Assembly (NCBI GenBank): GCA_017792465.1
Contig: CP051234.1
Coordinates: forward strand, 622,606 to 686,605
Direction of reading: 5' to 3'
From: Filomicrobium sp.
Lineage (GTDB): Bacteria > Pseudomonadota > Alphaproteobacteria > Rhizobiales > Hyphomicrobiaceae
DNA: 64,000 nucleotides
Part shown: positions 3,150 through 17,745 of the stretch, one piece after another
How the letters are laid out: every line of letters starts with the position of its first letter
Numbering within the stretch: position 1 is the stretch's first letter
Position numbers and translations under genes: made by a program
Notes under the pieces: model-generated
The model's database searches: none
What the model was told of the DNA's origin: nothing
What the model saw: only the letters and a program-made list of their open reading frames with translations

Positions 3150-5513
3150 ATGGCCTTAAAGACAACTTCTTCGACCAAAGAAATTACCGAAACGAAACCC
3201 ACCGCTCCAGACGTTCGGAACGAATTCAAAACCAATATCAACGGCACCAGCGCGAATGACGTGCTCTATGGGAATTACGCCGATAACTACATGTATGGCA
3301 TCGAAGGCAATGACACCTTCATGGGCAGTGACGGATCCGACGAGATGCACGGCAGCGACGGCGACGATACCGTCAACTACTCGAACTCTCCGAAAGCTGT
3401 AACCGTCAACCTTATGAAAGGAAGTGGGAAGGGTGGCTATGCCCAAGGTGACAAGTATGTTTCGGTCGAAAACGTAAAAGGATCCCAGTACAAAGACACG
3501 ATCTTTGGGGACAACAAGAAGAACGTCCTCGATGGTGGGCATGGCGATGACTATCTAGCCGGCGCAGGTGGCGACGACGAACTGATTGGCGGCGTCGGCA
3601 ATGACATTCTCGAAGGCGGCGTCGGCGAAGACTTCCTCGACGGCGGCAGCGACATCGACACCGCGTCATATGCCAATGCGACCTCCAGCGTCATCGCCGA
3701 CCTCGAAAGGGGTGGCATCTATGGCGAGGCCTTCGGCGACACCTACAAAAGCATTGAAAACCTCGCCGGATCGGCCCATTCCGACTGGCTTTACGGCGAC
3801 GACGGCGCCAACGAAATTTCAGGCGGCGGCGCCCAGGACTTCCTCTATGGGCGCGAGGGCAATGATGTCTTAAACGGTGAGGGTGGCGACGATATTCTCG
3901 ATGGCGGCGAAGGCGCCGACGTCTTGAATGGCGGCTCAGGCACCGACGAGGCGAACTATAAAGACTCGGACAAAGGGGTGACCGTGCGGCTTGCCGGCGT
4001 TTCCGAAGGCGGAACGGCCGAAGGCGACACCTATTCCAGCGTAGAAAATGCCGTCGGCTCCGACCATAACGATGTTTTCTATGGAACAGCTTATGCCAAC
4101 ACCTTCTGGGGGCGCGGTGGAGATGACGTCTTCAAGGGCGACGGCGGCATGGACCATTTCGATGGCGGCGCCGACAGCGACACGGTCGATTATCGCGGAT
4201 CTGATGAGGCTGTGACGGTCAATCTTGCCACCGGCCAGGGAGACGGCGGAGACGCCTGGGGCGATACTTATCAGTCCATCGAAAACATCTATGGCAGCGA
4301 ACAAGAAGAAAACCTTCTGATCGGGAATGACGGCGACAATATCATTAAATCCTTCGGCCACCATGATGATATAGAAGGCGGCGCTGGAAATGATGATATT
4401 TATGTCTATGGCGCCTTTGAAACTATTAATGCCGGAGATGACGACGACTTTATTCGAGTTATTGACAGCAAAGACCAGGATTTCTGGGAAAGTCAGTATT
4501 TGCTTGGAACCGGCGTTCGGGTTCGCGATGGCCAACTTTCCTATCGTGACGAAAATGGAAATATTATTCGCGGCCCAGATGGCAATTTCCACACGGGCCT
4601 CGTGATAGATGGTGGTGAGGGCGAGGATACCGTTGACTTCGGGCTCAGCAATTGGGTGAACGAGGGGACGTCGGCTCTTTCCGATCACGGCGGCGTCAGC
4701 GTCGATCTCTCTGCAATTCGCTTTTCCTTTGAGGGTCACCATTACAATGGTGAGACGAGTTCGAACACCGGAAACCCGCTTGGCGATGACCATGTCACCA
4801 AAGGCTGGATCACCAACGTCGAAAACGTCTACGGCACGCAGTACGAGGACTACATCGAGGGTAACGCCAGCGATAACAAGTTTGTCGGCGGCGGCAGCGA
4901 TGATGTTCTGCGTGGTGAAGAAGGCAATGACGAACTGCGCGGCGACGCTGGTGACGATACCCTCGATGGCGGCGCGGACGACGATACGCTGAATGGTGGC
5001 GCGGGCGCCGATGAGCTGATCGGTGGTGAGGGCGAAGACACGGCGGACTATCTGGGTAGTGCGCTTGGGGTCAACGTCAGTCTGACATCAAACATCGGCA
5101 CCGAAGGCGACGCCGCCGGGGATACGCTGAGCGGAATCGAGAACCTTTCTGGCAGCGACGAAGGTGATTTCCTTGAAGGTAACTCGGACGCTAACGTGAT
5201 CATGGGGAATGACGGCGCCGACATCATCGATGGCGCCGGTGGAAACGACATTCTCTATGGCGGTGCGGACGGCGACACCTTCTTGTTCGGATCGGAGTTC
5301 TACTTCGACGACAGCACCGTCCTGATCATGGACTTCGACGCGAGCGAGGATGTCGTCGATCTCACGCACCTTCCCGGGTTCGAAAGCGCTCAGGATGTTG
5401 TGGATCAGCTCGATCAGTTGGGTCCGGATGCCGTCCTGCATTACGAAGGGGCCATGCTCGGATTTGTCGGCGTGCCGGTTTCCGAACTGACCGCAGACAA
5501 CTTCCTGGTCTAA
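3150..5513 (+). CDS. Large secreted RTX-type calcium-binding repeat protein
   Basis: 787 residues, very acidic and free of cysteine, with many GGxGxDxLxG nonapeptides that bind calcium after export in RTX proteins. Six larger units are visible, each opening with a D-T/E-x-x-Y/F motif at about residues 73, 170, 266, 344, 493 and 630. Each unit continues with VTVNL-like, GDTYxSxEN and glycine-rich nonapeptide stretches. There is no Sec signal. The C-terminus ends in a hydrophobic, aspartate-containing tail (LTADNFLV), as in many type I secretion substrates. AGGAG precedes the ATG by 7 bases and a terminator follows. No type I secretion genes occur in the window. No enzymatic domain is seen, so an S-layer, adhesin or matrix role is inference only. 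Confidence 0.88.
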   Translation: MALKTTSSTKEITETKPTAPDVRNEFKTNINGTSANDVLYGNYADNYMYGIEGNDTFMGSDGSDEMHGSDGDDTVNYSNSPKAVTVNLMKGSGKGGYAQGDKYVSVENVKGSQYKDTIFGDNKKNVLDGGHGDDYLAGAGGDDELIGGVGNDILEGGVGEDFLDGGSDIDTASYANATSSVIADLERGGIYGEAFGDTYKSIENLAGSAHSDWLYGDDGANEISGGGAQDFLYGREGNDVLNGEGGDDILDGGEGADVLNGGSGTDEANYKDSDKGVTVRLAGVSEGGTAEGDTYSSVENAVGSDHNDVFYGTAYANTFWGRGGDDVFKGDGGMDHFDGGADSDTVDYRGSDEAVTVNLATGQGDGGDAWGDTYQSIENIYGSEQEENLLIGNDGDNIIKSFGHHDDIEGGAGNDDIYVYGAFETINAGDDDDFIRVIDSKDQDFWESQYLLGTGVRVRDGQLSYRDENGNIIRGPDGNFHTGLVIDGGEGEDTVDFGLSNWVNEGTSALSDHGGVSVDLSAIRFSFEGHHYNGETSSNTGNPLGDDHVTKGWITNVENVYGTQYEDYIEGNASDNKFVGGGSDDVLRGEEGNDELRGDAGDDTLDGGADDDTLNGGAGADELIGGEGEDTADYLGSALGVNVSLTSNIGTEGDAAGDTLSGIENLSGSDEGDFLEGNSDANVIMGNDGADIIDGAGGNDILYGGADGDTFLFGSEFYFDDSTVLIMDFDASEDVVDLTHLPGFESAQDVVDQLDQLGPDAVLHYEGAMLGFVGVPVSELTADNFLV

Positions 5514-9332: not shown

Positions 9333-9971
9333 TTACCAGCGCAGCGACATGCGGCCGGCCACTGCTCCAATAGCGATCACCGTCAGCGTCGCAATCGAAT
9401 ACCAAGCGGCGACGAAGAGCGGGGAATCGTCGATGCAGTGCATGGCGTAGACGAGCGCACCCAGCGCCGCAGCCAGCCGCCCCAAGGCCGCTCCAGCAAC
9501 CGCCGACGAAGCCGGCGCGCCCGAACGCATGGCATAGATACCCGCGGCCAACGGCGCCAACGACAATACCGGGATCGCAACCATGCAAACCAGCCAATTG
9601 GTGCCGAAGAGGTGTTTTCCCCATTGATCTTGTTGCGTGAGCCAGAGTTCGAGTGCAACGGCACTTGCGATCGCAACAGGCAACAGCCAACTCGTCCAGG
9701 TGGCAAAATGCCGGTTGGTTGGATTGGTCAGGCTGGCAGCATCCCGCAATGCCAGGATGACCGCCAGGCCGATGAGGGCCAGTTTCAGATCAAAACGCCA
9801 GCTGGATAGTGCGTCTATCAGATTTGGACGGAAGCCCAGGATTGACAAGAACACGATCGCAGACGCCAGCGCGCCAATGGACGCTGCGACGCCGACATTG
9901 CGTGCCCACAGCGGTGGCGGCGGTCGCGTGTCTGCAACCAGAGCGGAAATGAGTTCGTCGGTCTTCATCAA
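9333..9971 (-). CDS. nrsF: NrsF-like (DUF1109) membrane anti-sigma factor
   Basis: 212 residues with six predicted membrane spans and a short cytoplasmic N-terminus (MMKTDELISALVAD) typical of DUF1109/NrsF. In Caulobacter, NrsF holds the ECF factor SigF inactive at the membrane until heavy metal or oxidative stress. The start overlaps the sigma factor stop by 4 bases, so the two are translationally coupled. Its metal- or redox-sensing cysteines are few: one Cys lies in the segment NWLVCMVA and another in the segment MHCIDD. Context with the bufferin genes supports a metal-stress role. Confidence 0.88.
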   Translation of the reverse strand: MMKTDELISALVADTRPPPPLWARNVGVAASIGALASAIVFLSILGFRPNLIDALSSWRFDLKLALIGLAVILALRDAASLTNPTNRHFATWTSWLLPVAIASAVALELWLTQQDQWGKHLFGTNWLVCMVAIPVLSLAPLAAGIYAMRSGAPASSAVAGAALGRLAAALGALVYAMHCIDDSPLFVAAWYSIATLTVIAIGAVAGRMSLRW

Positions 9972-10516
9972 TGGTTTCGCTTGTAAGCTGCAGAAAGGGT
10001 TTGCAGGGCGCGGTGCAGTGCGGTTCTTACCGCACCTTCACTCATCTTGAGTTTATCGCCGACTTCGCGCGCGCTGAGGCCCTGAAGGGAGAAGTATCTG
10101 ACGATCTGCTGCTGGCGATCGGGGAGTTCAACCAGCAGTTCCAGACATTCCTTGACGCTGGCTTCGTTGCGATCGACGGGGGCTGGAATTTGATCCGCCA
10201 GTTCATCGATATTCAGTGGTGTCCGGTTGCCACGACGGCGCAGAGTGTCGATCAGTTTATGGCGGGCGATGGCATTGACCCAAGGCTGAAGCGGCTGGTC
10301 CTCGTTCCAAGTGTGCTTTTTCAAATGGATCGCCAGCAGCGTTTCTTGCACGATATCTTCCTCGTCGTTGGCATCACATCCTGCTTGACGCAGACCAGCG
10401 CGCACGACAACGCGCAGGCGCGCCGCCAGTGCGCCAAGGAGGCGCCGGTAGGCCTCCTCGTCTCCGCTGCGGGCAGCGATCATCAGCAAGCTCAAGTCGT
10501 GGTCCTGATGACTCAC
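9968..10516 (-). CDS. sigF: ECF sigma factor, SigF-like
   Basis: 182 residues with sigma region 2 (residues about 15-85, including DIVQETLLAIH and WVNAIARHKLID) and region 4 (about 125-175, with SAREVGDKLKMSEGAVRTALHRAL). The start appears to be GTG, with GAGGA 10 bases upstream. It is co-transcribed with the NrsF anti-sigma gene. It is divergent from the bufferin operon, and both carry the same promoter motif, so the factor probably drives itself and the operon. This matches Caulobacter SigF, whose regulon includes DUF2282/DUF692/DUF2063 genes. Confidence 0.88.
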   Translation of the reverse strand: MSHQDHDLSLLMIAARSGDEEAYRRLLGALAARLRVVVRAGLRQAGCDANDEEDIVQETLLAIHLKKHTWNEDQPLQPWVNAIARHKLIDTLRRRGNRTPLNIDELADQIPAPVDRNEASVKECLELLVELPDRQQQIVRYFSLQGLSAREVGDKLKMSEGAVRTALHRALQTLSAAYKRNH

Positions 10517-10536
10517 GGACGACGTTTCCTCATGTC

Positions 10537-10564
10537 TTTACGTGCGGCTAGGCTCATTCGTTAC
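10537..10564 (-). promoter_or_regulatory. SigF-type promoter of the sigF-nrsF operon
   Basis: On the minus strand GTAACG (10564-10559) and CGTAAA (10542-10537) are separated by 16 bases, close to the Caulobacter SigF consensus GTAACC-N16-CGAA. It lies just upstream of the sigma gene and suggests autoregulation. Confidence 0.6.
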
Positions 10565-10653
10565 ACAAGTCGGCTGGGCTGTAAGCGAAAGATCCCGGCA
10601 TTGGCATGTCTGCGGGCGCTCGTACACAACACGTTTAGTTGAACCGGTTCAGC

Positions 10654-10679
10654 GTAACAAATCGCGGTGACGGTTCGAA
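10654..10679 (+). promoter_or_regulatory. SigF-type promoter of the bufferin operon
   Basis: GTAACA (10654-10659) and CGAA (10676-10679) are separated by exactly 16 bases, one mismatch from the Caulobacter SigF consensus GTAACC-N16-CGAA. It sits about 90 bases upstream of the precursor ATG. Confidence 0.7.
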
Positions 10680-10768
10680 ACCCTCTACGGGTGCCCGAAA
10701 ACGGGCGCCTGAGGTCTTGCTTAATGACGGCCTCCTTTCAACTGACAGCCAAATCGAGGTTACGACCC

Positions 10769-11038
10769 ATGAAGATGGCAACCTTCTCAGGCGCAGCGCT
10801 TGCCGCCTCCGCCGCGACCCTCCTCATTGCAGGTGCAGCGTCATTGCCGGCGAGTGCCGCCAGCGACGCCAAGGGCCATTGCATCGGCGCCAACGCCTGT
10901 AAGGGCAAAGGCGCATGCAAAACGGCTTCCAACGAATGCAAGGGCCACAACGCCTGCAAAGGCAAGGGCTTCAAGGAAATGACGAAAGCCGAATGCGAGA
11001 AGATTGAAGGCGCCAAATTCGAGGCCGCCTCCAAGTAA
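10769..11038 (+). CDS. Bufferin-type Cys-rich RiPP precursor (BufA-like)
   Basis: 89 residues. A Sec-type signal (about residues 1-31, ending SLPASA-A) precedes a hydrophilic core with six cysteines at 38, 44, 50, 57, 63 and 76. The core holds a duplicated motif, C-x-G-x-N-A-C-K-G-K-G, at residues 38-48 and 57-67. Bufferin precursors (DUF2282 and related BufA families) are exported copper-binding peptides whose cysteines are modified to thiooxazoles by a DUF692/MNIO enzyme. The next two genes are exactly that enzyme and its DUF2063 partner. The upstream in-frame extension to 10667 lacks a signal and was rejected. Function as a metal buffer is inferred from family and context; the modified residues are not known here. 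Confidence 0.85.
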   Translation: MKMATFSGAALAASAATLLIAGAASLPASAASDAKGHCIGANACKGKGACKTASNECKGHNACKGKGFKEMTKAECEKIEGAKFEAASK

Positions 11039-11069
11039 CGGCACTTCGAGAAGAGTTCACACTGTTGCT

Positions 11070-11114
11070 GGACCGGGATGGGCTTTGTCGATGAGGCGGA
11101 GCCCGTCCCAGTCC
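11070..11114 (+). other. Strong hairpin between precursor and modification genes
   Basis: The stem is GGAC-c-GGGATGGGCT against AGCCCGTCCC-a-GTCC: 14 pairs including one G-T, with one mismatch and a 15-base loop. It lies 31 bases after the precursor stop and 33 bases before the bufB ATG. No T-run follows directly. This position suits partial termination or mRNA protection that keeps precursor in excess over enzyme. Confidence 0.55.
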
Positions 11115-11147
11115 GCGTTGCCGAATTGTTTAAAAAGGAGCGCTTTG

Positions 11148-12074
11148 ATGAACACGGCAGCACAACCGATTTCCCGGCAGCATCGCGACACGCTTGGTTC
11201 TGCGCGAGAGCGACCCTCCTACCTTGGCTTCGGTTTGGGTCTTCGCTCCCAGCATTACTCTGAAATTCTGGGCGGGGATCCTCCGGTCGATTGGTTCGAG
11301 GCCATTTCGGAAAACTACATGGTGCCGGGCGGCCAACCGCTTGCCATGTTGGAACGGATTCGCGCGCGCTACCCCATCGTGCTGCACGGGGTCTCGATGT
11401 CGATTGCTTCGACGGCTCCGCTTAACGTCGATTATCTGGAAGGGCTCAAGTCACTCGCTGATCGTTTTGAGCCGGAGTTCATCTCCGATCATCTGTGCTG
11501 GACCGGTGTGCATGGCGTCAACCTGCATGATCTTTTGCCGATCCCGTATACGCGGGAGGCGCTTGAGCATGTGGTCTCGCGGATCGATCAGGTTCAGGAC
11601 ATTCTGGGACGGCCGCTCGCGATCGAGAACGTGTCGAGCTACGTGCAGTATGCCCATTCCGAAATGACCGAGTGGGAGTTCCTGGCGGAGATGACCAAGC
11701 GTACGGGCTGCTGGCTCGTGCTCGACGTCAACAACGTGTTTGTCAGCGCGTTCAACCACGATTTCGATGCACGGACATTCATCGATGCGATTCCGCGCGA
11801 TTGTGTCGTTCAGTTTCATCTGGCCGGTCATGAACACAACACGACCCACATCATCGATACCCACGATGCGTTGGTCCCCGACGAGGTTTGGGATCTCTAT
11901 CGGCGGGCGGTCAAGCGGTTTGGAGCTGTCTCGACCATTATCGAGCGGGACGATGATATCCCGCCACTGGCTGACATGATCGCGGAGCTCGATCTGGCCC
12001 GGCGCTACGCGACAGAAATTCTACCGGAGTTGCATGTCGCAAAGGAATCCGGACGTGAGGTGGCCCGGTCATGA
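11148..12074 (+). CDS. bufB: DUF692 / MNIO-family RiPP-modifying enzyme (BufB)
   Basis: 308 residues from the ATG at 11148, which has AAGGAG 7 bases upstream; the frame is open further upstream without a start signal. It is a TIM-barrel multinuclear non-haem iron enzyme, with likely metal ligands in VLHGVS, SDHLCWTG, AIENVSSY, LDVNNVF, FHLAGHEH and IIERDDDIP. In characterised bufferin systems this enzyme converts Cys residues of the precursor to 5-thiooxazole using oxygen. It is cytoplasmic. Its stop overlaps the next start by 4 bases (ATGA), indicating coupled translation. Confidence 0.92.
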   Translation: MNTAAQPISRQHRDTLGSARERPSYLGFGLGLRSQHYSEILGGDPPVDWFEAISENYMVPGGQPLAMLERIRARYPIVLHGVSMSIASTAPLNVDYLEGLKSLADRFEPEFISDHLCWTGVHGVNLHDLLPIPYTREALEHVVSRIDQVQDILGRPLAIENVSSYVQYAHSEMTEWEFLAEMTKRTGCWLVLDVNNVFVSAFNHDFDARTFIDAIPRDCVVQFHLAGHEHNTTHIIDTHDALVPDEVWDLYRRAVKRFGAVSTIIERDDDIPPLADMIAELDLARRYATEILPELHVAKESGREVARS

Positions 12075-12946
12075 CAGCTGCTCTCCAGCTTGACGAGGCG
12101 AATGAAGAGGTTCATCGAGCGGATGCCAAACCAGGCCAAGCGCCAAGCCTTGCTGAAATCCAAGCGATCTTCCAGCAGGCGGTGCTGAGCCAAGATGTGA
12201 GTCTCCTCAGTTTTATCTGCGATAGCTCGCGGACTGACAGGCAAGTGCTGTTGGGCGTTTACCAGAACGCCTACATTCTACGGCTGGTTGAAGTCGTTCG
12301 CGGCGACCATCCAATGCTGGCTGCCTATCTTGGCGACGAAGTCTTCGACGAGATGGTGCGGGCCTATGTTGCGAAGCATCCCTCACGAACCCCGAACGCG
12401 CGATGGGTCGCTTGCAGGCTTCCTGATTTTCTGAAGACGCAATCGCCTTATCGCGAGCATGCAGAGGTTCATGAGCTGGCGCGCTTGGAATTTTCGCTCA
12501 ACATGGCCTTTGATGCCGTCGATGCCGCTGTTATCGATCTTGGCAACCTTGCGGTCTTTGCACCGGAGACCTGGGGTGCGCTCACATTCGTTCCCCATCC
12601 TTCAGCGCAACGCTTGGATCTCGTGTCGAACGCAGCGGAGATCTGGCTGGCGCTGAAATCGGAAGAGGCACCGCCCGACGCTGAGCTCAGTGGCAGCGTC
12701 GATGAACCCCACCGCCTCATCGTCTGGCGCGATGGCGTCGTGCCAAAGTTTCGGGAACTCAAAGCAGAAGAAGCGATGATGTGGGATGAGGCCGTAAAGG
12801 GTATGTCTTTTGGTACTCTTTGTGAGCTTTGCGCGGTCTTTGACGATCCTGAAACGGCGCCACTGAGGGCTGCGGGTTATCTTAACAGTTGGCTCGGTAC
12901 CGGGATGTTGAGCGGGGCAACGCTAACGGGACAGGATGCGTCCTGA
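12071..12946 (+). CDS. bufC: DUF2063 protein, partner of the MNIO enzyme (BufC)
   Basis: 291 residues. The N-terminal 130 residues match the DUF2063 pattern (LAEIQAIFQQAVL, VYQNAYILRLVEVVRGD, A-Y-V-A-K-H-P-S-R). The C-terminal half is a looser alpha/beta domain. In bufferin clusters this protein binds the precursor leader and delivers it to the MNIO enzyme. Translation is coupled to bufB by overlap. No DoxX-type fourth gene follows; the operon ends against the convergent fdsD gene 37 bases away. Confidence 0.85.
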   Translation: MTAALQLDEANEEVHRADAKPGQAPSLAEIQAIFQQAVLSQDVSLLSFICDSSRTDRQVLLGVYQNAYILRLVEVVRGDHPMLAAYLGDEVFDEMVRAYVAKHPSRTPNARWVACRLPDFLKTQSPYREHAEVHELARLEFSLNMAFDAVDAAVIDLGNLAVFAPETWGALTFVPHPSAQRLDLVSNAAEIWLALKSEEAPPDAELSGSVDEPHRLIVWRDGVVPKFRELKAEEAMMWDEAVKGMSFGTLCELCAVFDDPETAPLRAAGYLNSWLGTGMLSGATLTGQDAS

Positions 12947-12983: not shown

Positions 12984-13226
12984 TCAGTCGGCGTTATGTA
13001 CTTCAGGCGCGTTTGAGGCCGCCAGCTTCATGGACGCCGCGCGCGCGATGTCATCGAGGCCTGCGCCTCCGTCGGCTAAATGCGCCATTAACCCCGCGCG
13101 CATGCGTGGGTCCCAGAATTTGCGGACGTGATCGGCAGTCGCGGCGATGGCCCGCTCGTCGCCTTGAATTGCCGTATTGCGAGCGATCTGGTTGATCATG
13201 TCGACGAGCTTTTTATTCATGCTCAT
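12984..13226 (-). CDS. fdsD: NAD-dependent formate dehydrogenase, delta subunit
   Basis: 80 residues. The pattern MNKKLVDMINQIARN, then HVRKFWDPRMRAGL, is the FdsD signature. This small subunit aids assembly or stability of the soluble molybdenum formate dehydrogenase FdsABG. GGAG is upstream of the first ATG; the second Met at codon 3 is an alternative. It lies 63 bases after fdsA and closes the operon. An fdsC gene is not present here; the sulfurtransferase FdhD is encoded at 28.9 kb instead. Confidence 0.9.
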   Translation of the reverse strand: MSMNKKLVDMINQIARNTAIQGDERAIAATADHVRKFWDPRMRAGLMAHLADGGAGLDDIARAASMKLAASNAPEVHNAD

Positions 13227-13289
13227 AACGCGCGGGCTCCAATATTCATTGCTGCGACCGAATCGATGCGAACGTCCCCGGTGCGGCGA

Positions 13290-16163
13290 CTATTCGGCCG
13301 CATCGACGGCAACGATGCGCCGACTCTTTTCGGCAAAGTCGGAATACTCTTCCTGGTAGTCGGTCGGGCCGTTCGACGGGCTCACCTGCACCGCCGTCAC
13401 TTTGTATTCGGGGCAGTTGGTGGCCCAGTCCGAATGATCAGTGGTGACGACGTTGGCCTGCGTCATCGGGTGGTGGAACGTCGTATAGACGACGCCCGGC
13501 GCAACCCGATCGGTCAGCAGCGCACGCAAAGCCGTCTCGCCGGACCGGCTACGGACCGTGACCCAATCGCCATCGTTGACGCCGCGCTGTTCTGCGTCAT
13601 GCGGGTGGATCTCAAGACGGTCTTCCTCGTGCCAGACGACGTTGTCGGTCCGCCGCGTTTGAGCCCCAACATTGTACTGCGAGAGGATGCGGCCGGTGGT
13701 GAGGATCAGCGGGAAGCGCGGCCCGGTTCGTTCGTCGGTCGGGATGTAGTCGGTCATCATAAACAGACCCAGACCGCGCGTGAAATTCTCGACATGCATC
13801 ACGGGAAAACCTTCAGGATGCTCTTCGTTGCACGGCCACTGGATTGACCCGAGCCGTTCGAGCTTGTCGTAGGTCACGCCCGTGAAGGTCGGGGTGAGCC
13901 GCGCGATCTCGTCCATGATCTCGATCGGGGTCTGGTAGTTCCAGTCAAGCCCGACCTCTCGCGCGATCAGCTGAGTGATTTCCCAGTCTCCATAGCCGTT
14001 GATCGGGCTCATCACCTTGCGCACAGGCTGAATTCGGCGCTCGGCGTTGGTGAAGGTTCCGTCTTTTTCCAGGAACGTCGAACCCGGCAGGAAGACGTGC
14101 GCGTAGTTGGCCGTTTCGTTGAGGAAGAGGTCCTGGATGACGACGCATTCCATTGCTGCCAAACCGCTGGCGACGTGGTGCGTATCGGGATCCGATTGCA
14201 GGATATCTTCGCCCTGGATGTAGAGCGCGCGGAAGGACCCTTCGACGGCCGCATCGAGCATGTTGGGGATGCGCAGGCCGGGTTCCGGATTAAGCGTGCA
14301 GTTCCAATCGGCCTCGAACAAGGTGCGTGTCGCGACGTCTGAGATGTGGCGGTAGCCGGGCAGCTCGTGGGGAAACGAGCCCATGTCGCAAGAGCCCTGG
14401 ACGTTGTTCTGGCCACGCAATGGGTTCACGCCGACGCCGGGACGTCCGATGTTCCCGGTCGCCATGGCGAGGTTGGCGAGCGCCATGACGGTTGTCGACC
14501 CCTGGCTATGCTCGGTGACGCCCAAGCCGTAGTAGATCGCGCCATTGCCACCGGTCGCAAAAAGTCGGGCTGCAGCGCGGACTTCATCGGCAGGAACGCC
14601 GGTATAGGCTTCCATCGCTTCGGGGGAATTGCGGTCGCGCATCACGAAGGCGCGCCACTCCTCGAACGCTGCCACATCGCAACGGGATTTGATGAAGTCG
14701 GTGTTTTCGAGGCCTTCAGACAGGATCACATGCGCCATCGACGTCATGATCGCGACGTTGGTTCCGGGCTTTAGGGCGAGGTGATAGTCCGCCGACACGT
14801 GCGGCGATTTCACCAGGTCGATGCGGCGCGGATCGACGACGATCAGGCGGGCGCCTTGGCGAAGACGCTTCTTCATGCGGCTGCCGAAGACTGGATGGCC
14901 ATCCGTCGGGTTGGCCCCGATGACGAGAATGACATCAGAGTGCTCGACAGAGTCGAAGTCCTGGGTCCCGGCCGACTCGCCGAACGTGGTCTTCAGGCCG
15001 TAACCGGTCGGCGAATGGCAAACGCGTGCGCAGGTGTCGACGTTGTTGACGCCAAAACCCTGACGGATCAGCTTTTGCACCAGGAAGACGTCTTCATTGG
15101 TGCAGCGCGACGACGTAATCCCGCCAACCGAGCCCTTGCCGTATTGATTCTGAATCCGCTTGAACTCGGAAGCGACGCGGCCGATCGCTTCATCCCACGT
15201 CGTCTCGCGCCATGGATCATTAATGCTTTCGCGAACCATCGGCTTGAGGATGCGCTCCTTGTGGGTTGCATAGCCATAAGCGAACCGGCCTTTGACGCAC
15301 GAGTGGCCGCGGTTGGCCTTGCCGTCTTTGTAGGGGACCATGCGCACGACTTCTTCTCCGCGCATCTCGGCCTTGAAAGCGCAGCCGACGCCGCAGTAGG
15401 CGCACGTCGTCACCTTCGAATGCTCCGGCTGGCCGGTTTCGATGAGGCTGTTCTCAGACAGGGTCGCGGTCGGACAAGCCTGGACGCAGGCCCCGCAAGA
15501 CACGCATTCGGAGGCAAGGAAACTCTCGCTCATTCCGGCTGATACGCGACTGTCGAATCCACGGCCGGTGATCGTCAGTGCGAACGTGCCCTGCACTTCC
15601 TCGCAGGCCCTGACGCAGCGATTGCAAACGATGCATTTCGAGGGATCGTATGTGAAGTAGGGATTGGAGGTGTCCTTCGACAGGAAGTTGGTGTTCGGCA
15701 GATTTGCCTGCGTGTCGAAAACATGGTTGGCGCCATCATAGCCATAACGCACGTCACGCAAGCCAACGGCACCTGCCATGTCCTGCAACTCGCAATCACC
15801 GTTCGCCGCGCAGGTTAGGCAATCGAGCGGATGGTCGGAGATGTAGAGTTCCATGACACCGCGGCGGATGTCTTTGACGCGCTGCGTTTGCGTCTTGACG
15901 ACTAGCCCCGGCGAAACCGGCGTCGTGCAGGAGGCCGGCGTTCCGTTGCGGCCTTCGATCTCGACAAGACACATGCGGCATGACCCGAAACTTTCGAGCA
16001 TATCGCTGGCGCAGAGTTTCGGGATCTCGGTGCCCGCCTCCATTGCGGCGCGCATGATGGACGTCCCGGCCGGTACTGTGACCTCGGAGCCATCGATCGT
16101 CAGCGTCACAAGTTCCTTCGACACACTGGCGGGTGTGCCGTAGTCGGTTTCTTTGATCAGCAT
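13290..16163 (-). CDS. fdsA: NAD-dependent formate dehydrogenase, alpha (molybdenum) subunit
   Basis: 957 residues from the ATG at 16163, chosen because GAGG lies 8 bases upstream; the frame is open to 16211. Domains in order: a [2Fe-2S] ferredoxin domain (about 15-90, CASDMLESFGSCRMC), a NuoG-like His/Cys [4Fe-4S] site, a 2x[4Fe-4S] module (CIVCNRCVRAC and CVSCGACVQAC), the catalytic [4Fe-4S] motif (CAYCGVGC), and molybdopterin-bisMGD domains. Cys382 (in ARVCHSP) is the likely Mo ligand; no selenocysteine is used. The enzyme oxidises formate to CO2 in the cytoplasm and reduces NAD through FdsB. Confidence 0.96.
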   Translation of the reverse strand: MLIKETDYGTPASVSKELVTLTIDGSEVTVPAGTSIMRAAMEAGTEIPKLCASDMLESFGSCRMCLVEIEGRNGTPASCTTPVSPGLVVKTQTQRVKDIRRGVMELYISDHPLDCLTCAANGDCELQDMAGAVGLRDVRYGYDGANHVFDTQANLPNTNFLSKDTSNPYFTYDPSKCIVCNRCVRACEEVQGTFALTITGRGFDSRVSAGMSESFLASECVSCGACVQACPTATLSENSLIETGQPEHSKVTTCAYCGVGCAFKAEMRGEEVVRMVPYKDGKANRGHSCVKGRFAYGYATHKERILKPMVRESINDPWRETTWDEAIGRVASEFKRIQNQYGKGSVGGITSSRCTNEDVFLVQKLIRQGFGVNNVDTCARVCHSPTGYGLKTTFGESAGTQDFDSVEHSDVILVIGANPTDGHPVFGSRMKKRLRQGARLIVVDPRRIDLVKSPHVSADYHLALKPGTNVAIMTSMAHVILSEGLENTDFIKSRCDVAAFEEWRAFVMRDRNSPEAMEAYTGVPADEVRAAARLFATGGNGAIYYGLGVTEHSQGSTTVMALANLAMATGNIGRPGVGVNPLRGQNNVQGSCDMGSFPHELPGYRHISDVATRTLFEADWNCTLNPEPGLRIPNMLDAAVEGSFRALYIQGEDILQSDPDTHHVASGLAAMECVVIQDLFLNETANYAHVFLPGSTFLEKDGTFTNAERRIQPVRKVMSPINGYGDWEITQLIAREVGLDWNYQTPIEIMDEIARLTPTFTGVTYDKLERLGSIQWPCNEEHPEGFPVMHVENFTRGLGLFMMTDYIPTDERTGPRFPLILTTGRILSQYNVGAQTRRTDNVVWHEEDRLEIHPHDAEQRGVNDGDWVTVRSRSGETALRALLTDRVAPGVVYTTFHHPMTQANVVTTDHSDWATNCPEYKVTAVQVSPSNGPTDYQEEYSDFAEKSRRIVAVDAAE

Positions 16164-16173
16164 GATTTGAGCC

Positions 16174-17745
16174 TCATTCGGCGGCCACAGGCAGCGTGCG
16201 CTTGCGTCCAAAATCTTCGGGGAAATGGGTCAGGGCACTCATGACGGGATAAGGCGTGAAGCCGCCCAGTGCGCACAACGATCCAAACTTCATGGTGTTG
16301 CAAAGGTCCTCGACGAGTTCGAGGTTCGCGTCCACTTTGTCGCCGGCGATGACCTTGTCGAGCGTCTCGCGGCCACGCACCGCACCGATGCGGCAGGGCG
16401 TGCATTTCCCGCAGCTTTCGGCTGCGCAGAAATGAAAGGCGAATCGCGCCTGCCGGGCCATGTCGGCAGTGTCGTCAAAGACAACGATGCCGGCGTGACC
16501 GATGAGGCCATCGCGCGCGGCAAAGGCTTCATAGTCAAACGGCGTGTCGAAATACTCTTGCGGGAAATAGGCTCCCAATGGGCCGCCGACCTGTACGGCC
16601 TTGAGCGGGCGGCCGGTGGCAGTGCCGCCGCCGATGTCATTGACGAGTTCTCCGAGAGTGATGCCGAATGCGGTCTCGAACAATCCGCCATGCTTGATAT
16701 TGCCAGCAAGCTGGATCGGCATCGTTCCGCGCGAGCGACCCATCCCGTAATCGGCATACGCCTGCGCGCCTTCGGCCAGGATGAAGGGCACTGCGCCGAG
16801 CGAGAGGACGTTGTTGACGACTGTTGGCTTACCAAAAAGGCCTTCATGTGCCGGCAACGGCGGCTTGGCGCGAACCAGACCGCGTTTGCCTTCCAGGCTT
16901 TCCAGCAACGAGGTTTCTTCGCCGCAGACATACGCACCCGCGCCGATGCGGACTTCCAATTCGAAATCGTAGGTGCTGCCGCAAATGTTGCGCCCGAGAT
17001 ATCCGCCCGCCTTTGCAGCAGCGATGGCCTCATCGAGGGCAACGGCGGCATGTGGGTATTCGGAGCGGAGGTAGATGTAGCCTCGGGTCGCGCCGACTGC
17101 GAGGCCTGCAATCGTCATCCCCTCGATCAGGCAAAACGGATCGCCTTCCATCAGCATGCGATCGGCGAACGTTCCGCTGTCGCCTTCGTCGGCGTTACAG
17201 ACAATGTATTTCTGGTCACCGTCGCAATCGTGGACGGTCTTCCATTTTGTTCCGGTCGGGAATCCGGCACCGCCGCGGCCGCGCAACCCGGATTTCGTCA
17301 CCTCTTCGACGATTTCGGCCGGCTCAATGGCGAGGGCTTTGGCAAGACCCTGGTAGCCACCATGAGCGCGGTAAGCCTCAAGTGAGACGGGGTCGGTGAG
17401 ACCGCAGCGCGCGAAGGTTAGGCGCGTTTGCTTTTCGAAAAACGGGATCTGTTCGGTTGGCCCTAGCGCCAGTGCGTGTGAGATTTGCGAAACGGATGTG
17501 CCTTGCGCCAACTGAGCGATGATTTCAGCCGCCGTTTTTGCGTCGCAAGGCCCGAACGCATAACGAACGCCGGCTTCCTCAATCTCAAGAAGTGGCTCAA
17601 GCCAGAGCATTCCGCGCGATCCGTTGCGGACGATCGTGGCCTCCAGACCGTGACGCTTGGCTTCGCTGGCGCAGGCTTCACCAACGCCATCGGCCCCGCA
17701 CGCAATCGCGGCCGCATCGCGCGGCACAAAAAGCTTGAAGGTCAT
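16174..17745 (-). CDS. fdsB: NAD-dependent formate dehydrogenase, beta (FMN/NADH) subunit
   Basis: 523 residues. An N-terminal thioredoxin-like region (about 1-100) is fused to a NuoF-like domain with the FMN/NAD site (GLRGRGGAGFPTGTKW, then CNADEGDSGTFADR). A C-terminal [4Fe-4S] motif (ESCGKCTPCRIG) completes it. It transfers electrons from FdsA to NAD. Its start overlaps the fdsG stop by 4 bases, with GGAGG 7 bases upstream. It is separated from fdsA by 10 bases. Confidence 0.96.
   Translation of the reverse strand: MTFKLFVPRDAAAIACGADGVGEACASEAKRHGLEATIVRNGSRGMLWLEPLLEIEEAGVRYAFGPCDAKTAAEIIAQLAQGTSVSQISHALALGPTEQIPFFEKQTRLTFARCGLTDPVSLEAYRAHGGYQGLAKALAIEPAEIVEEVTKSGLRGRGGAGFPTGTKWKTVHDCDGDQKYIVCNADEGDSGTFADRMLMEGDPFCLIEGMTIAGLAVGATRGYIYLRSEYPHAAVALDEAIAAAKAGGYLGRNICGSTYDFELEVRIGAGAYVCGEETSLLESLEGKRGLVRAKPPLPAHEGLFGKPTVVNNVLSLGAVPFILAEGAQAYADYGMGRSRGTMPIQLAGNIKHGGLFETAFGITLGELVNDIGGGTATGRPLKAVQVGGPLGAYFPQEYFDTPFDYEAFAARDGLIGHAGIVVFDDTADMARQARFAFHFCAAESCGKCTPCRIGAVRGRETLDKVIAGDKVDANLELVEDLCNTMKFGSLCALGGFTPYPVMSALTHFPEDFGRKRTLPVAAE

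Follow-up and report, generated by a model that had tools for sequence, protein, structure and literature searches.

The window analysed here, a 64,000-nucleotide stretch of the Filomicrobium sp. genome (contig CP051234.1, positions 622,606 to 686,605), carries a bufferin gene cluster, bufABC, arranged back to back with genes for an extracytoplasmic function (ECF) sigma factor and an NrsF-type anti-sigma factor. Judged from its sequence, the locus is a Buf2 (BufA2-family) bufferin operon that is ordinary by its parts. The ECF/NrsF pair lying beside it in cis, however, contradicts a published generalisation, since the survey of Antoine et al. (2025, PMC12452194) describes sigma/NrsF genes in Buf1 clusters and none in Buf2 clusters. 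A literature search combining NrsF with bufferin or MNIO, which covered titles and the beginnings of abstracts and left subscription literature largely outside, contained no Buf2–sigma/NrsF pair among the matches listed. Overall, we consider it highly probable that the locus is a Buf2-type bufferin operon under the control of an adjacent stress switch, whose product would be modified and bind copper.

Gene identities and family membership are supported by profile searches. The precursor exceeds the cut-off of the NCBIfam equivalog model for BufA2 (NF050166; 89.1 bits against a cut-off of 60, E 1.6e-25) and the MNIO that of the bufferin maturase BufB (NF050167; 380.9 bits against 310, E 2.8e-114), with the bufB product also matching Pfam PF05114 (MbnB_TglH_ChrH) at E 2e-111. 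Among solved structures, the closest relative of the MNIO is PDB 3bww (E 4.6e-43), while 8hci (a DUF692 protein) and MbnB are more distant; its nearest named relatives belong to the Hyphomicrobiaceae. Sequence searches of solved structures returned only two chains for the precursor (E 0.49 and 3.2), which we judged to be chance, and one for BufC (E 0.87). A profile search with PF10048 (DUF2282), the Buf1 family, found no match in the precursor and no DUF2282 gene in the genome (one contig, 4.47 Mb, 99.94% complete), which argues against a Buf1 assignment. As this genome yielded one BufA2, one MNIO and one NrsF, the operon appears to be its only bufferin system of the BufA2 and DUF2282 families.

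These results agree with much of the initial annotation, which had called the locus a bufferin-type operon. The open reading frame (ORF) from the ATG at 10769 translates into the 89 residues with six Cys described there, family searches (NF050167, PF05114, PF09836) recover the MNIO gene followed by the DUF2063 gene, and sigma-70 domains and PF06532 identify the divergent ECF sigma/NrsF pair at the coordinates it had been given. The reported lack of a DoxX partner also holds for the adjacent genes: the operon is flanked by a xanthine/uracil-family permease on one side and the formate dehydrogenase subunit FdsD on the other, so no DoxX adjoins it, the rest of the genome not having been searched for DoxX. 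That annotation missed both the membership in the Buf2 branch and two back-to-back ECF16-type promoter sites in the shared gap.

This gap of 252 bp separates the ECF start from bufA, and the ECF/NrsF pair is divergent from bufABC (Table 1). NrsF is encoded directly after the sigma gene, with one base shared between the sigma stop and the NrsF start, and the bufB stop is likewise overlapped by the start of bufC. The published ECF16 consensus is (T/C)GTAAC-N17-CGAA (PMC8315932), and the Caulobacter SigF promoter, GTAACC-N16-CGAA, has the same spacing (PMC3511200). The site facing bufA is an exact match to this consensus and the site facing the sigma gene a one-base variant (CGTA). Sites occur at the same places before both genes in Hyphomicrobiaceae bacterium HKST-UBA48 (G281, locus L119). 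The promoter sites are supported further by their placement. The exact pattern YGTAAC-N17-CGWA is found 12 times in the genome, and two of these occurrences lie in this gap, facing both transcription units, while the remaining ten are all inside mechanically called ORFs of at least 100 residues; at the density of those ten, the chance of two or more sites in 252 bp is about 1.6e-7. Among 20 family loci, the window included, 14 have a strict site either at the ECF16 start or a short distance upstream of it.

Table 1. Features of the bufferin locus and its divergent sigma/anti-sigma pair, in window coordinates.
Feature	Position	Strand	Evidence or detail
NrsF-type anti-sigma gene	9333..9968	-	PF06532 159.2 bits (cut-off 26.8), E 1.6e-46; Cys 128 and Cys 178
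ECF sigma gene, ECF16/SigF-like, GTG start	9968..10516	-	sigma-70 domains; gene order with NrsF; ECF tree
Putative ECF16-type promoter site toward sigma gene, TGTAAC-N17-CGTA	10539..10565	-	exact pattern match
Putative ECF16-type promoter site toward bufA, CGTAAC-N17-CGAA	10653..10679	+	89 bases 5' of ATG
bufA2, Buf2/BufA2-family bufferin precursor, 89 residues, six Cys, Sec-like signal peptide by eye	10769..11038	+	NF050166; alignment of 39 sequences
First C-x-G-x-N-A-C-K-G-K-G copy, residues 38-48	10880..10912	+	motif match
Second C-x-G-x-N-A-C-K-G-K-G copy, residues 57-67	10937..10969	+	motif match
bufB, MNIO bufferin maturase, ERDD signature	11148..12074	+	NF050167; PF05114; PDB 3bww
bufC, DUF2063-domain MNIO partner	12071..12946	+	PF09836 69 bits (cut-off 27.2), E 4.3e-19

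The frequency of this arrangement was assessed in a whole-genome survey of BufA2 and NrsF across alphaproteobacterial genomes of the order (249), the family (79) and the class (318). BufA2 above the cut-off was present in 33, 19 and 18 of these genomes respectively, together 65 different genomes with 77 BufA2 places. In two of the 65, namely this genome and G281, the same contig carries NrsF no more than 5 kb from BufA2. Direct reading of the BufA2 flanks (1.5 kb to either side at most order-level loci, some 3 kb or more elsewhere, less at contig ends) revealed no additional case of linked NrsF among the 65 genomes, a linkage that spans a contig end being invisible to such reading. The best 12 or 9 NrsF candidates were scored per genome, and "without NrsF" therefore means not detected. 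The named set adds a further case, Bradyrhizobium sp. BTAi1 (L147, 3515-4186), where an NrsF-like gene faces bufA2 across a gap with two divergent ECF16-type sites; it has no adjacent ECF gene and lacks the second conserved Cys. BTAi1 also has a DUF2282 cluster of the Buf1 type roughly 2 kb past bufC, and is one of nine loci (L145, L147, L158, L161, L171, L208, L213, L216 and L228) where DUF2282 (Buf1) and BufA2 (Buf2) operons share a contig and stand a few kb apart, some of the nine being overlapping stretches of one contig.

In 13 genomes without observed linkage, bufA2 is preceded by the same promoter site. Within the named set, 10 of 72 regions upstream of bufA2 (window included) hold a site on the buf strand and six hold one on the other strand; 100 shuffles gave a mean of 0.03 regions, and the reversed pattern gave 0. 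By genome, NrsF was detected in 25, of which 15 have the site before bufA2, and was not detected in 33, of which 0 have it (Fisher 1.1e-7 for 58 genomes, a value that is only a guide because related genomes are not independent). Seven further genomes fell outside this count, their eight loci lacking a match to the strict Cys-core pattern, and none of these loci holds the site; once added by hand, they bring the counts to 15 of 26 where NrsF was detected and 0 of 39 where it was not. Which genomes bear NrsF or RskA was likewise entered by hand from the survey results. Since the site is present in 15 of 26 NrsF genomes, Buf2 is often likely to be an ECF16 target where NrsF is present, usually from a distance, and cis linkage would be the rare form of this control. 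At three loci (L133, L134 and L137), bufA2 has a divergent doxX-like neighbour, and it is this gene, not bufA2, that the ECF16-type site faces. BufA2 also occurs in 20 plasmid records, none from Sinorhizobium, and the one that was read (a Bradyrhizobium Ash2021 plasmid) has no ECF, NrsF or MNIO annotated within 4 kb of BufA2; NrsF occurs in 118 plasmid records, one of which was examined for its neighbourhood.

A second sigma/anti-sigma type, ECF/RskA, is tied to Buf2 clusters. In 9 of the 65 genomes, bufA2 is immediately preceded by co-directional genes for an ECF and an RskA-type anti-sigma factor (RskA was assigned by PF10099 in the one that was scanned and by similarity to it in the others), and an ECF16 site precedes bufA2 in 0 of these 9. 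The same kind of ECF is found upstream of bufA2 in a tenth genome, G261, where the ECF only was checked. At the level of individual loci, this layout was observed in Hyphomicrobium and other alphaproteobacteria (L089, L120, L122, L126, L127, L129-L132, L005 and L007). One clade of the MNIO tree (99/94) unites the window and G281 with G290 and G302, which have the site without linkage, and with G291 and G311, which have a different regulator. This mixture suggests an exchange of regulators within a single maturase lineage.

The sigma factor of the window probably belongs to the ECF16 group, to which it was assigned from its NrsF partner and promoter sites and not by a classifier. It pairs with the sigma factor of G281 in the ECF tree (88/81), in which long-branch warnings name the window's row, and the branching of the window, G281 and G316 in the NrsF tree is not resolved (84/83). 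Members of the NrsF family are described as having six transmembrane segments (PMC8315932, PMC3511200). The two Cys of NrsF in the window are at the same positions in G281, and the corresponding pair in Caulobacter NrsF is C131/C181 (PMC3511200).

The Cys pattern of the precursor was examined in an MNIO-based scan of bacterial and archaeal genomes, of which the best 80 of 316 loci were retained and 81 read, the window included. Precursor-like ORFs were present in 77 of the 81 loci, giving 88 ORFs with this precursor counted; these were chosen by similarity to it, which favours conservation. The alignment supports a conserved pattern in which all six Cys are present in 88 of 88 ORFs, and Lys follows Cys 44, 50, 57 and 63 in 83, 82, 77 and 87 of them, as opposed to 2 and 5 for the outer Cys 38 and 76. 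The initial annotation had instead emphasised a duplicated motif, C-x-G-x-N-A-C-K-G-K-G, and both copies are present (residues 38-48 and 57-67). As a novelty, though, the duplication had to be discarded: of the 88 ORFs, 68 have two copies of the relaxed form C-x-G-x-N-x-C-K-G-x-[GSAN], 13 have one and 7 have none, making two copies the family norm. The copies differ in synonymous codons at three shared positions, and so are no recent exact DNA repeat. The further proposal that each repeat may bind metal is unsupported as worded, as the conserved pattern consists of four inner Cys-Lys sites and two outer Cys and lends nothing to a two-site metal model built on two repeats.

In Buf1 bufferins, modification falls on the central Cys, and a disulfide joins the outer pair (PMC12452194). 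From this analogy together with the Cys-Lys pattern, we infer that four inner Cys are modified and the outer two joined by a disulfide in the Buf2 precursor; the authors of the same survey report that the Buf2 modifications had yet to be identified in their work. A published paper has tied the Asp following the presumed catalytic Asp of the MNIO to Cys-Lys substrates. The MNIO of the window has this Asp (in ERDD) and is one of 74 with it among 81 close relatives, itself counted. By eye, the precursor N-terminus shows the features of a putative Sec signal peptide: Lys, an extended run of hydrophobic residues and an A-S-A site.

We favour a model, set out here as a proposal, in which NrsF would keep the ECF16-like sigma factor at the inner membrane of unstressed cells, and a metal or thiol-reactive signal sensed via the two NrsF Cys would free it. 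The freed sigma factor would then fire the two back-to-back promoters, driving its own gene and bufABC. In the cytoplasm, BufB and BufC would oxidise BufA2 at its four inner Cys-Lys sites, turning each of these Cys into a 5-thiooxazole with a loss of about 4 Da; the peptide would exit via Sec, its outer two Cys would pair as a disulfide, and the thiooxazole thiols would bind Cu(I) in the periplasm. Modification, export, copper binding and copper induction are carried over from characterised relatives, while what NrsF senses and how, as well as the number and positions of the modified Cys, are our own suggestions. Copper sensing by this pair is likely by analogy with Caulobacter, where copper induced SigF and its regulon, bufferin-type operons included, under every condition tested and a mutant lacking sigF was sensitive to copper (PMC8224329). 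A more specific version of this model is, in our estimate, about an even bet; it holds that the ECF16/NrsF pair serves only itself and one Buf2 operon in this genome, that Buf2 is a common ECF16 target, often controlled at a distance in other NrsF-bearing alphaproteobacteria and with an ECF/RskA pair taking over in some members of one maturase clade, and that four inner thiooxazoles bind two Cu(I).

Several observations weigh against this model. Raw counts of the promoter pattern carry little weight, as its reversed control is found 38 times in the genome and the true pattern 12 times, which leaves position and orientation as the only arguments for function. Of the 26 NrsF genomes, 11 have no site before bufA2. 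BufC falls below the NCBIfam HvfC cut-off (26.1 against 142 bits), as NrsF does below the stricter NCBIfam NrsF cut-off (103.9 against 300 bits). The AlphaFold2 model of the precursor, built with 39 sequences, is poor (mean pLDDT 61.8, pTM 0.38) and gives no support to the disulfide. With respect to the signal, S. meliloti ECF16 reporters did not respond to H2O2, Cd or chromate, and the inducers named there do not include copper (PMC6180224); another alphaproteobacterial ECF16 pair responds to HOCl and activates an operon for methionine sulfoxide reductase (PMC8315932). Both cases speak against copper as a simple explanation of the signal.

The HOCl-responsive pair and its repair operon, together with the response of Caulobacter SigF to chromate and cadmium (PMC3511200), are also what one would cite for a different switch, one that reads reactive chlorine or oxygen species and a bufferin that serves mainly against oxidative or thiol stress or soft metals (Cd, Cr, Au). 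We think this somewhat unlikely, given that the Caulobacter results on copper induction and on sigF loss point the other way and that no repair regulon is visible among exact ECF16-type sites: the only such sites outside ORFs of at least 100 residues are the two in this gap, mismatched sites not having been searched. It is much less probable that the precursor is an unmodified metallothionein-like Cys peptide, with BufBC inactive or doing something else. A sizeable share of bufferin precursor genes have no MNIO association (PMC12452194), but here bufA, bufB and bufC adjoin, bufB and bufC overlap, and the MNIO retains the residue tied to Cys-Lys substrates. We give least credence of all to the idea that the ECF/NrsF pair is a mere chance neighbour of the operon; although the rarity of the linkage (2 of 65 genomes with over-cut-off BufA2) would fit it, back-to-back sites in both this gap and that of G281, and the same site before bufA2 in the 13 genomes with no linkage seen, speak against chance.

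Immediately downstream of bufC, on the opposite strand (12984-17745), FdsD (PF11390) stands beside large ORFs that by eye resemble subunits of an NAD-dependent formate dehydrogenase. Elsewhere in the window (3150-5513) is a gene for a 787-residue protein rich in glycine-aspartate repeats, which we take to resemble RTX-type calcium-binding proteins.

Bufferins are a large family of copper-binding ribosomally synthesised and post-translationally modified peptides, and the switching of Buf2 operons is little treated in the literature covered. If the single-target version of our model is true, Buf2 as a common ECF16 target would counter the published view that confines sigma genes to Buf1. The co-occurrence of promoter site and NrsF offers a simple and testable way to predict which Buf2 operons respond to stress signals of the SigF type, the Cys-Lys pattern predicts which four of the six Buf2 Cys carry the modification, and the linked locus described here could serve as a compact system for studying ECF16 control of Buf2.

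Compared with known systems, the operon is like the Buf2 clusters (BUF_6/12Cys; NCBIfam BufA2) of PMC12452194 in its six-Cys, putatively exported precursor, MNIO, DUF2063 partner and bufABC order; it differs in its divergent sigma/NrsF neighbours and in that DoxX, common in bufferin clusters, is not adjacent. Caulobacter SigF-NrsF and CC3254-3257 (PMC3511200, PMC8224329) share with it an ECF/NrsF pair beside a bufferin-type operon, a near-identical promoter, the NrsF Cys pair and a role in copper, whereas the precursor of that operon is classed as DUF2282 and its last gene is DoxX. The same DUF2282 listing is given for CC2907, of the unlinked operon CC2907-2905 (PMC3511200). The BufA2 model matched nothing in 14 control genomes, Caulobacter included, which is at odds with the Buf2 of C. 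vibrioides mentioned in PMC12452194. The same divergent layout as here is found in Sinorhizobium meliloti RpoE7-EcfR7 and SMb20530-20527, with printed promoters of TGTAAC-N17-CGAA (SMb20530) and TGTAAC-N16-CGAA (rpoE7) (PMC6180224). In S. meliloti BL225C (L200), however, the precursor beside the NrsF gene is Buf1-like by eye (EKCYGVALKGQNDC...), with a DoxX-like gene, also recognised by eye, following, unlike the locus described here. Finally, the captophorins (fontiphorin, oxazolin and gonophorin; PMC13097082), thiooxazole metallophores in whose class bufferins are counted, likewise combine an MNIO with a DUF2063 partner, with EGKCG Lys-Cys repeats where the present precursor has Cys-Lys sites.

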